Under the pieces are notes generated by a model, which saw nothing but the letters and a program-made list of their open reading frames with translations, did not search any database and had not been told where the DNA came from. The position numbers and the translations under genes are program-made. From Anaeromyxobacter dehalogenans 2CP-1 (lineage in GTDB: Bacteria > Myxococcota > Myxococcia > Myxococcales > Anaeromyxobacteraceae): 64,000 bases of DNA. This document shows positions 14,599 to 20,919 of this stretch, one piece after another. The stretch covers positions 124,001 to 188,000 of the forward strand of contig NC_011891.1 of assembly GCF_000022145.1 (NCBI RefSeq), given 5' to 3'. The first letter of the stretch is position 1; every line of letters starts with the position of its first letter.

Positions 14599-15092
14599 CC
14601 CGTCGCGAGCGGCTTGCGCATCCAGCGCGCGGGCAGCCCGAGGCCGCCCGGGAGCGGCGCGCGCGCGGCGCGGCCGGGGCGGAACCCGAGCCGGGCGTAG
14701 AAGCCGATCGCGGGCGCGGCCGCGAGCACGCGCAGCGCCCGGAAGCCGTCGTTCCGAGCTCGCCGCTCCACCGCGGCGACGAGCGCCGCGCCCACCCCGC
14801 GGCCCGCCGCGGAGGGCCGGACGAACACCGCGGTCAGCTCCGCCCCGCGCCAGGCGGCGTACCCGGCCACCCGGCCGCCGCGCTCGGCCACGAGGTACCG
14901 CTCGCCGCCCGCGCTCATGGCCCACAGGTGATAGAGCGGCGGGAGCGAGGCCCAGGCGGCGCGCAGGCGGTCCGGGAGCGCGCCGGCGGGGACCCCGCGC
15001 ACCGCGGCGCGCATCGCCCGCGCGATCGCGGCGGCGTCCGCGGGCCGCGCCGCGCGGACGCGGGGCGCGCCGGGGCGGCGGTCCCGCGTCAG
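14595..15092 (-). CDS. GNAT family N-acetyltransferase
   Basis: 165 residues if begun at CTG 15092. The acetyl-CoA loop is VRPSAAGRGVGAALV (R-x-x-G-x-G/A type) near residue 95, preceded by LVAERGGRVAGYAAWRG and followed by APAIGFYARLGFRPG, the usual C-terminal GNAT motif. Substrate unknown. The start is a puzzle: the first in-frame ATG (15014) would remove the first beta-strand (RVRAARPADA), and the only upstream initiator-like codon is a CTG forming a CTGA overlap with the stop of the sigma-54 regulator. It is last in the cytochrome/kinase/regulator operon. The stop overlaps the stop of the nuclease gene on the other strand by 4 bases. Confidence 0.8.
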   Translation of the reverse strand: MTRDRRPGAPRVRAARPADAAAIARAMRAAVRGVPAGALPDRLRAAWASLPPLYHLWAMSAGGERYLVAERGGRVAGYAAWRGAELTAVFVRPSAAGRGVGAALVAAVERRARNDGFRALRVLAAAPAIGFYARLGFRPGRAARAPLPGGLGLPARWMRKPLATG

Positions 15093-16468
15093 GGCTTCGC
15101 GTCCTTGTCGGCGAGCCCGTGCCGCGCGAGCTTCTCGTAGAACGTGGATCGGTGCAGCCCGGACAGCTCGGCGGCCCGCGCCACCTGCCCGCCCGCCTCG
15201 CGCAGCACGTCCTCGAGGAAGCGCTTCTCCCAGGCGTCGCGGGCGCGCCGGTAGCGTCCCTCGTCGGCGCCGCCGGCCGCGTCGCCGGAAGGCGTGAGCT
15301 CCGGCGGCAGGTCGGCGAGCGCGATGGCCTCGCCGCGCGCGAGCAGCAGCCCCCGCTCGATGGCGTGCTCCAGCTCGCGGATGTTGCCCGGCCATGGGTG
15401 GTCGAGGAGCGCCCGCATGGCCTCGGCGTCGGGCTGGAGCGGCGGGCGCGAGAGCCGGAGCGCGTGCTTCTGCACCAGGTGCTCGACGAGCAGCGGGATG
15501 TCCTCGCGCCGCTCGCGGAGCGGGGGCAGGCGCAGCGGGACCACCCGGAGCCGGAACCAGAGGTCCTCGCGGAACTTCCCCTCCTTCACGCGCCGCAGCA
15601 GATCCTCGTTGGTGGCCGCCACCACCCGCACGTTCGCCTTGCGCGCCTTGCGGCTGCCGACCGGGATGAACTCGCCATCCTGCAGGACGCGCAGGAGCTT
15701 CGGCTGGAGCGCCGGGGGCAACAGGCCGATCTCGTCGAGGAACAGCGTGCCGCCCTCCGCCGCGGCGAAGAACCCGGCCCGCGGCTGGTCGGCGCCGGTG
15801 AACGCGCCCTTCTCGTGGCCGAACAGCTCCGACTCGGCCAGGTTCTCCGGGATCGCGCTCATGTTGAGCGCGACGTACGGCCCCTGCGCGCGCGAGGAGA
15901 GCGCGTGGGCGGCGCGGGCGAGCAGGTCCTTGCCGGTGCCGGACTCGCCCTCGATGAGGATGGGCACGTCGGACGGCGCGATGCGCTCCAGCATCGAGAC
16001 CAGGTCCTTCATGGACTGCGACTTGCCCACGATCCCGTGCACGCTGAACTGGCCGGCGAGCGCGGAGCGGAGCCGGGCGTTCTCCTTCTTCACCCGCGCG
16101 TGCTCCACCGCGCGCGCCACCACCAGCTCCAGCTCCTCCGGCTCGAACGGCTTCTTCAGGTAGTCGAACGCGCCCGCCTTCATCGCCTCGACCGCGGTCT
16201 CCACGGTGGCGAACGCGGTGACGAGGATCACCGGGATCTCCGGCACCTTCGCCTGGAAGCGGCGCAGCCCTTCGATGCCGTCGATGCCCGGCATGCGCAG
16301 GTCGGTGACGATGCAGTCGAAGTCGGCGCGCTCCACCGCCGGCACCGCCTCCGCCACCGAGGGGAAGTCGTAGACGTCGTAGGAGCGGGCCAGCGTGCGC
16401 TTCATCATCTGGCGCGCGCTGTCCAGGTCGTCGATGACCATCAGGTTGGGCTTCTTCGCGCTCGCCAT
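15089..16468 (-). CDS. NtrC-family sigma-54-dependent response regulator
   Basis: 459 residues. The receiver domain has Asp14/Asp15 and phospho-acceptor Asp56 in IVTDLRMPG, and Lys in YLKKPFEP. The AAA+ domain has Walker A GESGTGK (174-180), the sigma-54 contact loop GAFTGA (221-226), Walker B TLFLDEIG and the arginine-finger region FREDLWFRLRVVPLRLPPLRER. The C-terminal Fis-type helix-turn-helix reads GQVARAAELSGLHRSTFYEKL. The GAFTGA loop is intact, so it should be a true sigma-54 activator. It is immediately downstream of its likely kinase (2-base gap). A candidate target is the -24/-12 promoter of the cytochrome b fusion gene at 20728-20743. Confidence 0.94.
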   Translation of the reverse strand: MASAKKPNLMVIDDLDSARQMMKRTLARSYDVYDFPSVAEAVPAVERADFDCIVTDLRMPGIDGIEGLRRFQAKVPEIPVILVTAFATVETAVEAMKAGAFDYLKKPFEPEELELVVARAVEHARVKKENARLRSALAGQFSVHGIVGKSQSMKDLVSMLERIAPSDVPILIEGESGTGKDLLARAAHALSSRAQGPYVALNMSAIPENLAESELFGHEKGAFTGADQPRAGFFAAAEGGTLFLDEIGLLPPALQPKLLRVLQDGEFIPVGSRKARKANVRVVAATNEDLLRRVKEGKFREDLWFRLRVVPLRLPPLRERREDIPLLVEHLVQKHALRLSRPPLQPDAEAMRALLDHPWPGNIRELEHAIERGLLLARGEAIALADLPPELTPSGDAAGGADEGRYRRARDAWEKRFLEDVLREAGGQVARAAELSGLHRSTFYEKLARHGLADKDAKP

Positions 16469-16470
16469 GG

Positions 16471-17967
16471 CTACCCCGCGCCTCCCGCCGCGGCGTCCGC
16501 GGCGGCGCCGGCCTCGGCGGCCGGCAGGTGGACCCGGAACGTGGCACCGGCGCCGGGCGCGCCGGCCACCTCCACCGTGCCGCCGTGCGCCTCGGCGGCC
16601 TGGCGCACGATGGCGAGGCCGAGGCCCGTCCCGCTCGCCTTGGTGGTGAAGAACGGCTCGAACACGTGCGCGGCCGCCTCGGCGTCGATGCCGGGGCCGG
16701 TGTCGTGGAACTCGACCACCAGGCCGCCCGGCTCGCGCAGCGCCCGGACGGTGAGCTTCCCGCCGCCGCGGTCCTGCATGGCCTGCACCGCGTTCACGCC
16801 CAGGTTGAGGAACGCCTGCCGGAGCAGCTCCGCGTCGGCGAGCACCTCGGGCAGGCCGGGCTCGACCTCGACCGCGCGCTCGACCTTCGCGTGCGCTGCG
16901 GCCGGACCGAGCACCTCCACCGCCTCGCGCAGGATGGGCTCGACCGGCTGCACCAGCGGGTGGACCGTGCGCGCCCGCGCGAACACCAGGAACCGCTCGA
17001 TGAGCCCCGCGGCCCGCGTCACCTCCCGCCGGATCGCCTCCACGTCGGAGCGGTGCGGCGAGTCGTCGGGCAGCTCGCGCGAGGTGACCGCGGCGTAGCC
17101 GCGGATGACGTTGAGCGAGTTGCCGAGCTCGTGCGCGAACCCGGCCGCGATGCCGCCCAGCGTGGCCAGCCGGTCGGCGCGCAGCACCTCGCGGGTCTTC
17201 TGCGCCACGCGCTCCTCCAGCTCGGCGATGAGCCGCTGGTTCTCGGCGCGCCGCTCGTCGAGCCGGGCGGACATGTGGTTGAAGGCGCGGACGAGGTCCA
17301 CGAGCTCCCGGTCCTCGGGCTCCTCCAGCCGGACGCCGCGCTCCTCGGCGAGCGACTCGGCCGCGCTGGCGAGCGAGACGAGCGGCTGGGTCACCTGGCG
17401 GATGAAGATGGCCGCGAGCAGGTGTCCGAGCGCGATCCAGAACGCCGCCACCGCGGCGGCGCCCCAGGCGAGGTCGCGGGCGGCGCCCACCACCTCCTCG
17501 TGCGTGAAGTCCACCCGCACCGCGCCCACCACCGCGCCGGCGCGCACGATGGGCGCGGAGGCGACGATCCCCTCCGGCCGCACCAGGCGCGAGAGCGTCT
17601 GGAGCGGCCAGTCCGCCGCCTGGAACTCGCTCGGCGGCACGCCTTCGGGGCAGGGCTCGCCGGTCCGCGACACGCACGCGAGCACCTTGCCGGCGGAGTC
17701 CACGATCCAGGCGCGGTCGAGCGGGGCCGAGGAGACCAGCCGCTCGAGGAGCGCCGGCAGCGCCTCCGGGCCGCCCGGATCGACCCCGCCCTCGCGCACC
17801 CAGTGCGAGGCGCCGGTGGCGGTGGTCGAGGCGAGCGCCACGCCCTCGCGGAGCAGGAGCTCCTGCCCGCGCACCAGCTCGCGCCAGAGCGCCACCGCGG
17901 TCACGCCGGACATGGCGAAGATGATGACGCCGGCGATGAGCACGAACAGCTTCAGCCGCAGCGTCAT
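16471..17967 (-). CDS. Membrane sensor histidine kinase with periplasmic domain
   Basis: 498 residues. TM1 is at about 5-27, a periplasmic domain of about 130 residues follows, TM2 is at about 168-190, then HAMP, a short coiled coil (240-262), a DHp domain with HELGNSL (His279), and an ATPase domain with N box NLGVNAVQAM, DTGPGI and GTGLGLAI. The periplasmic part has a close cysteine pair, Cys98 and Cys106 (CVSRTGEPC), which could form a redox-sensitive disulfide; this is inference. It is preceded by the 12-heme cytochrome with an ATGA overlap and followed by the NtrC-type regulator, so cytochrome, kinase and regulator are translationally coupled or nearly so. Confidence 0.93.
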   Translation of the reverse strand: MTLRLKLFVLIAGVIIFAMSGVTAVALWRELVRGQELLLREGVALASTTATGASHWVREGGVDPGGPEALPALLERLVSSAPLDRAWIVDSAGKVLACVSRTGEPCPEGVPPSEFQAADWPLQTLSRLVRPEGIVASAPIVRAGAVVGAVRVDFTHEEVVGAARDLAWGAAAVAAFWIALGHLLAAIFIRQVTQPLVSLASAAESLAEERGVRLEEPEDRELVDLVRAFNHMSARLDERRAENQRLIAELEERVAQKTREVLRADRLATLGGIAAGFAHELGNSLNVIRGYAAVTSRELPDDSPHRSDVEAIRREVTRAAGLIERFLVFARARTVHPLVQPVEPILREAVEVLGPAAAHAKVERAVEVEPGLPEVLADAELLRQAFLNLGVNAVQAMQDRGGGKLTVRALREPGGLVVEFHDTGPGIDAEAAAHVFEPFFTTKASGTGLGLAIVRQAAEAHGGTVEVAGAPGAGATFRVHLPAAEAGAAADAAAGGAG

Positions 17968-18893
17968 CGCGCGCCCCCCTCGTCGGTCGGGAAGGTCGGC
18001 AGCGGGGCGCCCACGAACGCGTGGCAGGTGGTGCAGGCGGTGCCCTCGGCGTGGGCCTTGCCGGACGGGTGGCAGCGCAGGCAGTCGGCCTGCTCGGCGG
18101 TCCAGGTGTGCGGCTTGTGGCACTCGAGGCAGGTGCGGTGACCCGGGATCGCGTGCAGGCCGCCCTTTGCCATCGCGTCGGAGCCGTGGCACTCGGCGCA
18201 CGCCGCCAGCGTCTGGCCCGCGGGCCGGTGCGGCCGGTGGCAGGCGCTGCAGCTCATCTCCATGGGCGCGCCGTGCGTCGCCCCGTGCTCGTTCATGGGC
18301 GCGTGGATGCCCTGGGCGGTGTGGCAGCGCATGCAGTCGCGGCGGGTGGGGCGCAGGCCCTGCTCGCTGCCGAGGAACTCGTGGCAGGCGAAGCAGTGCA
18401 GGGCGGCCATCTTCTCCACGCCCACCGCGTGCCTCGGGTGGCACTCCTCGCACTTCTTCGCCACCGGCTCGAAGCCGTGCATCGAGGCGGCGTGGCAGCG
18501 CACGCAGGCGATGCCGCGCTCCTGGTAGTGGATGCGGTGGCCGCGCGAGTTGCCCACCTGCGGCCAGCGCGGGTCATGGGAGAAGTGGCACTGGGCGCAG
18601 GCCCCCACCTCCACCTCGGCGTGCTTCCCCTTCGGCTTCTGGCCGGCCAGGAACGCGCGCAGCATGGCGAGGCCCTGCTCCGGCGTGGAGTGGTGGCAGC
18701 GCTGGCAGGAGACGCTCCGGTGCGTCCCGCCCATCCACAGCGCGAACTCGGGGCTGGCGCGGTGGCAGGTGGCGCACAGGCGCGGGTCCTCGTCCACGAA
18801 CTCCTTGAAGCGGAGGAACCCCGCCACGAGCCCGACGAGCGCCAGCGCGGCGAGCCCTGCCAGGATCGTCTTCGCGTTCCTCGAGAGGCGCAT
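17964..18893 (-). CDS. Membrane-anchored 12-heme cytochrome c
   Basis: 309 residues with twelve CxxCH heme motifs: CATCH, CQRCH, CAQCH, CVRCH, CEECH, CFACH, CMRCH, CSACH, CAECH, CLECH, CLRCH and CTTCH. The N-terminus (RLSRNAKTILAGLAALALVGLVAG) is one uncleaved helix followed by DEDPRLCATCH, resembling the NapC/NirT anchor and first heme. The fold is therefore likely an inner-membrane-anchored periplasmic electron carrier. The start ATG at 18893 is chosen over one 25 codons upstream because the membrane anchor begins there and a -10 (TAGAAT) ends 11 bases before it. The stop overlaps the sensor kinase start (ATGA). The role in electron transfer is family knowledge; the partner is unknown. Confidence 0.92.
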   Translation of the reverse strand: MRLSRNAKTILAGLAALALVGLVAGFLRFKEFVDEDPRLCATCHRASPEFALWMGGTHRSVSCQRCHHSTPEQGLAMLRAFLAGQKPKGKHAEVEVGACAQCHFSHDPRWPQVGNSRGHRIHYQERGIACVRCHAASMHGFEPVAKKCEECHPRHAVGVEKMAALHCFACHEFLGSEQGLRPTRRDCMRCHTAQGIHAPMNEHGATHGAPMEMSCSACHRPHRPAGQTLAACAECHGSDAMAKGGLHAIPGHRTCLECHKPHTWTAEQADCLRCHPSGKAHAEGTACTTCHAFVGAPLPTFPTDEGGAR

Positions 18894-18904
18894 GCGATCC
18901 CGCG

Positions 18905-18910
18905 ATTCTA
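18905..18910 (-). promoter_or_regulatory. -10 element of the 12-heme cytochrome/kinase operon
   Basis: TAGAAT on the minus strand, 11 bases before the ATG; no clear -35. Confidence 0.45.
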
Positions 18911-19010: not shown

Positions 19011-20711
19011 CTAGCCGTTCTGCTCGTCCTTGAGCCGGTCGTACTCCAGCGGATGCTCGTGCTTCATCGCCTCGATCGAGATGCGCCCGTTCAGCCAGGC
19101 CCAGTTCATCGGGAAGATCGAGGGCTTCAGGTGCACGTTGTAGAAGTGGACCGTGAAGAGGAACAGGATGGCGAGCGTCGCCTCCTCGCCATGGATGATC
19201 TGCGCGGCGGTGATGAGCCAGCCCGGCGCCCAGCTCGCGAACCAGACCGGGAACCAGAAGATGAACCCGGTGCCGACCATCATCACGATGCCCCAGAACA
19301 CGGCCCAGTAGTCGAACTTCTCCAGGTACATGTACCGGTCGAACTTCGGCCGCTCCTTCTTCACGCCCATCATGAAGAGGAGGTTGTCGCGCATGTCGAG
19401 CGCGTCCTTCGGGACGGGGAGCATCGACAGCGGGAGCCGCTTCTTGGAGGCGAGGAACGTCAGGTAGAACAGGTGGTAGACGGACGAGATGATGATGAGC
19501 ACCGCGCCCACCCGGTGCCAGGTCGCCGCGCCCTCCGCGCCGCCGAACACCTTCATGAACGCGCGCGAGTAGGCGGCCGCCTCGGCGTCTCCGGCGCCGC
19601 GCAGCGGCCAGCCGGTGATGCCGAGCAGGATGACGCCCGAGAGCATGAACCAGTGCTGGATGCGCTGGTGGAGGTCGAACCGGATCACCGAGCGGATCGC
19701 GTCGGCGCTCGGGCCGTGGCCGGCCTTCTTCGCGAGCCGGCTGCGCAGCTCGTAGATGAAGTCCACCAGCACGTGGAAGGCGAAGAACAGCAGCGTGAGC
19801 GTGGTGAGCCAGGAGAACGCCACGTGGACGATGTGCGGGATGACGCTCCCGCCGGTCTCGTGCAGCGGCTTGTGGGCCACCAGGCCGGCGAACGTGTCGG
19901 TCGCGCCGGCGTGGCAGCGCGCGCACGCCTGCTTCTTGTTGGCCGCGCTCACCGTGGAGGCCGGATCGGTCTTCGAGACGATCGCGTGCGTGCCGCCCGC
20001 GTCCTTCGCGGCCGCGTGGCAGCTCACGCACGTCGGCGCGGCCGCGTTGCCGACTCGCGTCAGGCGGCCGTGGATCGAGTCGTGGTACGTGATCACCGCC
20101 TCCGGGTCGAGCCCGGCGGCCTCGGCGAACGCCTCGTTCCCGTGGCAGGCCTCGCAGCGCTTCGTCATCTCGCGGCGGTCGGCCGGCACCGGCACGCGCT
20201 TGCCGTCCTTCGGCGCGTACTCGGCGAGCTTCGCCGGGATGGCGTGCGGGGAACCGTGGCAGGAGGCGCAGGTCGCGCCCGGCGCCCTGGTGTCGCCGGC
20301 GAGCCACTTGCCGTGGACCGACGTCGCGAACGCCTCGGCCTCGGTGGTGTGGCAGTTCTGGCAGGCGAGGTAGGCGCGCGGCGCGGTCACGCCGTGCTTC
20401 GCCTCGCCCTCGCCCCAGGCGCCCTTCGCCAGGCGCGCCACGGTCGCCTGCTCGGCGGCGGAGAGCGCGGGAAGCTCGCCCTCGTGCGGGCCCTCCTTGT
20501 AGCCGGCATGGCAGTCGGTGCAGCCCACCTCGTTCTGGCCGTGGACCGAGCCGGGGAAGGCCTTGAAGTCGACCTCGGGCGCGCCGCCGCCCTTGTCGTG
20601 GCACATGAGGCAGGACTCGGCGTCGGCCGGCAGCGCCGGGGCGGGCTTCGCCTCCTCGGCGCGGGCAGCGGTCGAGAGGAGAAGCGCAATCGCAAGGAGG
20701 GTGGCTCGCAT
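19011..20711 (-). CDS. Seven-heme cytochrome c / cytochrome b fusion (CbcL-like quinone oxidoreductase)
   Basis: 566 residues. A signal peptide (RATLLAIALLLSTAARA) is followed by seven CxxCH motifs over the first 300 residues (CLMCH, CTDCH, CQNCH, CASCH, CEACH, CVSCH, CARCH). A di-heme b561-type membrane domain with about four to six helices follows, with candidate heme b His in HIVHVAF, IQHWFML, TWHRVGAV and VHFYNVHLK. This arrangement resembles CbcL of Geobacter, an inner-membrane complex that moves electrons from menaquinol to periplasmic cytochromes in Fe(III) respiration; function here is inferred from architecture. It has its own terminator and a sigma-54-type promoter ending a few bases before the ATG. 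Confidence 0.9.
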   Translation of the reverse strand: MRATLLAIALLLSTAARAEEAKPAPALPADAESCLMCHDKGGGAPEVDFKAFPGSVHGQNEVGCTDCHAGYKEGPHEGELPALSAAEQATVARLAKGAWGEGEAKHGVTAPRAYLACQNCHTTEAEAFATSVHGKWLAGDTRAPGATCASCHGSPHAIPAKLAEYAPKDGKRVPVPADRREMTKRCEACHGNEAFAEAAGLDPEAVITYHDSIHGRLTRVGNAAAPTCVSCHAAAKDAGGTHAIVSKTDPASTVSAANKKQACARCHAGATDTFAGLVAHKPLHETGGSVIPHIVHVAFSWLTTLTLLFFAFHVLVDFIYELRSRLAKKAGHGPSADAIRSVIRFDLHQRIQHWFMLSGVILLGITGWPLRGAGDAEAAAYSRAFMKVFGGAEGAATWHRVGAVLIIISSVYHLFYLTFLASKKRLPLSMLPVPKDALDMRDNLLFMMGVKKERPKFDRYMYLEKFDYWAVFWGIVMMVGTGFIFWFPVWFASWAPGWLITAAQIIHGEEATLAILFLFTVHFYNVHLKPSIFPMNWAWLNGRISIEAMKHEHPLEYDRLKDEQNG

Positions 20712-20727
20712 AGGCGTGGTCCGCGTG

Positions 20728-20743
20728 TGCAACCGATGTGCCC
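20728..20743 (-). promoter_or_regulatory. Sigma-54 (-24/-12) promoter of the cytochrome c/b fusion gene
   Basis: The minus strand reads GGGCACATCGGTTGCA, matching the sigma-54 consensus TGGCACG-N4-TTGCA at all but two fixed positions, with GG and GC at the required spacing. Transcription would begin about 6 bases before the ATG at 20711. An imperfect dyad AACCAG-N11-CTGGTT (20769-20791) lies upstream and could be an activator site, but it is short. Confidence 0.72.
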
Positions 20744-20919
20744 CGGTCCTGTGCCGGGTCGAAGACTCAACCAGCGGAAACGACTCTGGTTTGCGTGAGG
20801 TCAAGGGACGGAATGACGCAGGGTTTGCGCGGCGCGGGGGTGCGGCGGAACGGATCTGCGCGTTGGCGCGCGCGCCCGTCCGCACACGACGGGATTCCCC
20901 CAGTGTAGGGGAACGAGGT

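Follow-up and report, generated by a model that had tools for sequence, protein, structure and literature searches.

We propose, with a probability of about 0.72, that the cytochrome gene cyb7 of Anaeromyxobacter dehalogenans 2CP-1 has its promoter in a dyad-marked sigma-54 regulon for cytochrome supply, the activator of which is most likely EBP3. The window analysed is a stretch of 64,000 nucleotides (contig NC_011891.1, positions 124,001 to 188,000). The mark of the regulon would be a dyad, CGCAA-N3-TTGCG, lying 53-133 bp before a -24/-12 element, where a phosphorylated NtrC-type activator would remodel the sigma-54 holoenzyme. Its members would supply multihaem cytochromes: cyb7 itself, hemA2 (predicted first step of haem synthesis), ResB-CcsA (haem attachment), an operon joining a PPIase with multihaem cytochromes, and multihaem lipoproteins. 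DNA binding, the signal, the direction of control and the identity of the activator are the parts that we infer from sequence. The following features of the window are relevant:

15089..16468, minus strand: EBP1, NtrC-type response regulator with GAFTGA and a Fis-type HTH
16471..17967, minus strand: HK1, HisKA histidine kinase with a periplasmic sCache-like sensor
17964..18893, minus strand: cyt12, membrane-anchored c-type cytochrome of 309 aa with 12 CXXCH
18905..18910, minus strand: -10 TAGAAT of the cyt12-HK1-EBP1 operon, sigma-70 type, leaderless-like
19011..20711, minus strand: cyb7, 566 aa, periplasmic 7-haem c domain and membrane b561-type domain
20728..20743, minus strand: sigma-54 -24/-12 element GGGCACATCGGTTGCA, 32 nt 5' of the cyb7 ATG
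20764..20770, minus strand: -10 position of an FNR-type promoter, here degenerate TTGAGTC, TAGAAT in relatives
20791..20804, minus strand: FNR-like box TTGACCTCACGCAA (TTGAY-N4-RTCAA type), -93 to -80 from the cyb7 ATG
20817..20829, minus strand: upstream dyad CGCAA-ACC-CTGCG (CGCAAACCCTGCG), proposed enhancer, 86 bp before the 16-mer of the -24/-12 element

Most of what the initial annotation had read from the letters of this region is upheld. The 7-haem cytochrome b fusion was recovered by profile search as seven CXXCH motifs with PF01292 (a search of PDB sequences with cyb7 gave no match), and the protein probably moves electrons from quinol to periplasmic cytochromes at the inner membrane. 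The neighbouring operon encodes, as had been stated, a 12-haem cytochrome, a kinase with a cysteine pair and an NtrC-type GAFTGA activator; EBP1 combines PF00072, PF00158 and PF02954 with the GAFTGA loop, as expected of an NtrC-type enhancer-binding protein. C98 and C106 are the only cysteines of the HK1 sensor and are invariant in all 19 orthologues covering the region. They possibly form a redox-switched disulphide in a sensor whose fold, in a model of modest confidence, is sCache-like. The gene-order check proposed at that time found cyb7-cyt12-HK1-EBP1 as neighbours in every one of the six genera of the family, and likewise in an Archangiaceae MAG; EBP1 adjoins cyb7 wherever the contig extends far enough. 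Thus cyb7 and the cyt12-HK1-EBP1 operon are, judging by this order, evolutionarily linked. In three genera (L049, L053, L055-L057, L059, L063) cyt12 is inverted, still between cyb7 and HK1. A paralogous locus (L058, 2,202,001-2,222,000) carries HK2-EBP2 together with a separate 9-CXXCH cytochrome and a b-type gene. In most relatives the -10 of the cyt12 operon is TAGAAT or differs from it by one or two bases, and its place about 12 nt 5' of the ATG suggests a leaderless transcript.

The predicted -24/-12 element at 20743-20728 was also borne out. GGGCACATCGGTTGCA matches the consensus TGGCACGNNNNTTGCW at 10 of the 12 specified positions and has the correct spacing between the -24 GG and the -12 GC; the start predicted from it lies, as noted before, some 6 nt 5' of the ATG at 20711, which leaves no space for a ribosome-binding site. 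Matches scoring this high number 2 in the 64-kb window against 3.95 expected from shuffled sequence, and since they are not enriched, the match by itself proves nothing. The strict pattern TGGCACN5TTGCW has seven sites in the window's own genome, and the cyb7 element is not among them. Orthologues of cyb7 were found in 22 family genomes, with a fragment in G021, and the upstream regions were oriented and aligned. Twelve of the 22 orthologues, namely those of all nine genomes of the genus, both genomes of g3, and G020, have the element between -31 and -33. A weaker form, RGGCAY-N5-CTGCA at -36/-37, is found in four g4 genomes, and in two g5 genomes another candidate sigma-54 element lies at -42/-43; no -24/-12 element is present in the aligned upstream regions of G009, G017, G022 and G023. 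In a set of ten non-redundant genomes, identity is 89% in the specified columns and 38% in the flanking ones, and the -24 GG, the -12 TTGC and the final A of the element are invariant. Because both position and sequence are conserved well above the flanks, GGGCACATCGGTTGCA is a real, conserved sigma-54 promoter of cyb7, predicted to be functional.

The same alignment revealed a feature that had been missed earlier, the dyad CGCAA-N3-TTGCG upstream of cyb7. In each of the nine genomes of the genus it starts 86 bp before the -24/-12 16-mer (eight by scan at score 10; G005, where the 16-mer scores 9, by pattern search). The distance is 97 and 103 bp in g3 and, as read off the alignment, about 75 bp in g4; the steps 75/86/97 are close to one helical turn, and 103 does not fit. 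In G009, G022 and G023 the cyb7 promoter has neither the -24/-12 element nor the dyad. The upstream enhancer site expected of a sigma-54 promoter would be this predicted dyad, common to the whole regulon. Homologues of cyb7 from outside the family showed no dyads, and the regulon therefore seems restricted to it. Among these distant homologues, those in Gemmatimonadota MAGs (L256, L277, L283) and an unclassified bacterium (L278) adjoin a kinase-EBP pair, of which the EBP is closest to EBP3 (49-51%) and has GAFTDA. A plasmid search found nothing.

A genome-wide survey by pattern searches and inspection of sequence stretches extended the arrangement beyond cyb7. The window's genome contains four perfect dyads outside the cyb7 promoter; three of them are followed, after 56, 75 or 132 bp, by a strong sigma-54 element, and the dyad and sigma-54 element together are common to five separate operons in one genome. 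For the 24 family genomes we used a composite pattern (the dyad, 36-128 bases, GGCAYN5TTGC), with the reversed pattern as control. There were 16 + 27 + 5 = 48 matches versus 1 for the control; many of these are orthologous sites in related genomes, so that 48 is not the number of independent events. Forty-five of the 48 precede cytochrome or haem genes and three are unrelated. The targets are cyb7 (11 matches), hemA2, a second glutamyl-tRNA reductase (11), the PPIase foldase operon (9; with 26- and 16-haem cytochromes behind it in the window's genome), resB followed by ccsA for cytochrome maturation (8), multihaem lipoproteins or cytochromes (5), and HK3 (1). The hemA2 gene is present in part of the family only and is additional to another hemA, which occurs in nearly all genomes. 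Two glutamyl-tRNA reductase genes of one genome (L163, 2222812; L192, 1632589) are about 42% identical, and one of them lies behind a dyad with a sigma-54 element. Similarly built promoters in Anaeromyxobacter and its relatives form a small and apparently undescribed set, which would drive genes for the production, haem loading and folding of the multihaem cytochromes of metal respiration; we found no report of such a regulon in Anaeromyxobacter in the open-access literature.

The best candidate for the activator is EBP3, to which we would give, from the distribution of sites, about an even chance. In most genomes the dyad stands before an HK3-EBP3 or hemA2-HK3-EBP3 operon, and in G017, G018, G019 and G022 it is found on the HK3-EBP3 side and is absent at cyb7. 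Its presence there even where the cyb7 promoter has decayed makes EBP3 the better candidate. Moreover, self-regulation is common among such regulators, and a dyad at its own operon favours EBP3. Several observations speak against EBP3, among them the resB site of G010 described below. No clear sigma-54 element was seen near the HK3 dyad in G007 and G022, suggesting that the dyad-binding factor may also work without sigma-54. The EBP3 loop reads GAFTDA or GSFTDA, not GAFTGA, in all family members read, and is likely a natural variant. In the window's strain EBP3 has a 1-bp deletion relative to a close relative (L205) that splits the receiver domain. The deletion lies near 2,225,886 (about 5886 in L065), where a stop overlaps a new ATG (TGATG) and most of the receiver is lost; it may be real or an assembly error. 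Two other enhancer-binding proteins were considered and set aside: EBP4, beside resB, has a GAFADS loop and is therefore unlikely to work with sigma-54, and EBP2 (2.208 Mb) was a candidate only by virtue of a module about 14 kb from hemA2.

EBP3 would be driven by HK3, a kinase predicted to carry one c-type haem in its periplasmic sensor. The CXXCH of this sensor is invariant in 16 of 16 sequences, and the structural model places it in a Cache-like fold, on a short helix flanked by strands. The Foldseek matches of the model include Cache sensors such as 3b42 and 3b47, and the haem sensors GSU0935/GSU0582 are among the structural matches. As modelled, the sensor thus has the Cache fold and conserved CXXCH of the sCache_heme type, and it does not reach Pfam PF11845 at E 0.001. 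With a haem in the sensor and the operon behind the dyad, the production of cytochromes and haem would come under feedback from the haem or redox state. It is conceivable, at somewhat less than even odds, that HK3-EBP3 sense haem or redox state and through a single dyad activate their own operon, haem synthesis, haem attachment, the foldase and the cytochromes, in a closed loop.

The circuit put forward in the initial annotation, in which the redox state of a multihaem cytochrome is read by the neighbouring two-component system and controls cyb7, stands in part. The sigma-54 promoter is real and the link of cyb7 with the adjacent operon is evolutionary; the driver of the promoter would probably not be EBP1, given that the dyad is absent from the EBP1 operon and shared with HK3-EBP3. 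The step from the redox state of a multihaem cytochrome to the kinase is something we infer. According to the fuller version of this explanation, HK1, with cyt12 and the cysteine pair as redox sensor, drives EBP1, which acts through the dyad on cyb7 and the rest of the regulon. The order of the four genes across six genera and the Archangiaceae MAG, the intact GAFTGA of EBP1 in the window's genome and the invariant HK1 cysteines all fit it. However, the cyt12-HK1-EBP1 operon has no dyad in any genome examined and no sigma-54 element, EBP1 is retained in G009, G017, G022 and G023, where the cyb7 promoter lacks both, and several genomes with a decayed cyb7 promoter keep the dyad at HK3-EBP3. A shared redox partner could explain the linkage instead of transcriptional control. 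On these grounds EBP1 is our second choice, and an unlikely one.

Some other regulator, an enhancer-binding protein or not, may also bind the dyad, which resembles the NtrX box CAAN3-5TTG (PMC9223101); we consider this, from the sites at hand, just as doubtful. In G010 (L103, L156) a good dyad and sigma-54 site precede resB, and EBP1 and EBP3 were both not found in this genome, which is 92% complete. A perfect dyad near 255855 (L291), next to a TTGATTCTCGTCAA box and before pyruvate:ferredoxin oxidoreductase, has no sigma-54 element, and two one-mismatch dyads (L072 2076, 2116; L228) with an FNR-like box lie just upstream of the gene for an FNR homologue. These sites would be at home under such a regulator. 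On the other hand, the strong association of the dyad with sigma-54 elements favours an enhancer-binding protein, and identity with NtrX was rejected: against NCBIfam NF051870, with its cut-off of 600 bits, all candidates score well below, the most NtrX-like being L150 in the window's genome (422) and L158 in G010 (402), with 336 for EBP1 and 331 for the EBP3 fragment.

Less probable still is that an upstream FNR-type promoter is the main promoter of cyb7 under anoxia, with the sigma-54 promoter secondary. The FNR-like box is present in most cyb7 orthologues, and in six relatives its centre keeps a constant -40.5 spacing to a TANNNT -10, which is TAGAAT in five of the six. It is kept in G009, G022 and G023, all without the sigma-54 element and dyad, and in G022 and G023 together with its -10. 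Among the genes of the genome is one for an FNR homologue, which has N-terminal cysteines and the recognition helix ETLSR. The six relatives have the layout of an FNR class II promoter, for which a box centred near -41.5, a -10 and an FNR homologue are expected, but the -10 has degenerated in this strain and its closest relatives, where the sigma-54 element is conserved. A box at class II spacing to a -10 that is degenerate in this strain points to a second, older promoter. An anoxia-responsive promoter 5' of the sigma-54 one may have served cyb7 at first, or may persist in relatives. Finally, that the sigma-54 match before cyb7 is due to chance, as the unenriched count in the window would by itself allow, is very improbable given conservation far exceeding the flanks and the 48:1 excess of the composite over its control.

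Metal-respiring bacteria produce multihaem cytochromes in very large amounts, and the supply of protein, haem and maturation capacity must match; to our knowledge, little is known of how these are coordinated. With one enhancer motif over hemA2, ResB-CcsA, the foldase and the cytochromes, the regulon can be put directly to the test, and HK1-EBP1 and HK3-EBP3 can be named as two-component systems that are candidates for redox sensing. The shared enhancer motif is, moreover, a stronger guide to the controller of a promoter than the adjacency of a regulator gene. Overall, the shared enhancer with its predicted cytochrome-supply regulon appears a larger find than the cyb7 promoter itself, and what we say of control is to be read as prediction from sequence.

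Among known systems, BccR-CbcBA of Geobacter, in which a sigma-54-type regulator controls an inner-membrane cytochrome complex, would be alike in its mode of control; the name BccR was not met in the literature found. In Myxococcus xanthus rpoN, the gene for sigma-54, is essential. The RpoN regulon of Geobacter sulfurreducens, mostly of flagella, pili, nitrogen and central metabolism, similarly ties sigma-54 to cytochromes of extracellular electron transfer, but the word "heme" is absent from its description (PMC2725144). A single enhancer motif uniting haem synthesis, maturation and cytochromes was not found in the literature searched. The NtrX box of alphaproteobacteria recurs as CAA-N3-TTG inside the dyad and belongs to an NtrC-family regulator, as is proposed for the dyad (PMC9223101), although the candidates here fall under the NtrX family cut-off. 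The sCache_heme sensors GSU0935/GSU0582/Tll0287 (PMC12889525) resemble the modelled HK3, whose sensor is likewise of single-Cache type and bears CXXCH on a short inter-strand helix; they differ from it in that HK3 stays below PF11845; no target genes of sCache_heme kinases were found in the literature searched. Finally, CbcL of G. sulfurreducens also joins a periplasmic multihaem c domain to a transmembrane domain for inner-membrane electron transfer, with nine periplasmic haems versus seven in cyb7 (PMC9129911). It is by its domain architecture, a multihaem c domain with a b-type membrane domain, that cyb7 is called CbcL-like here.
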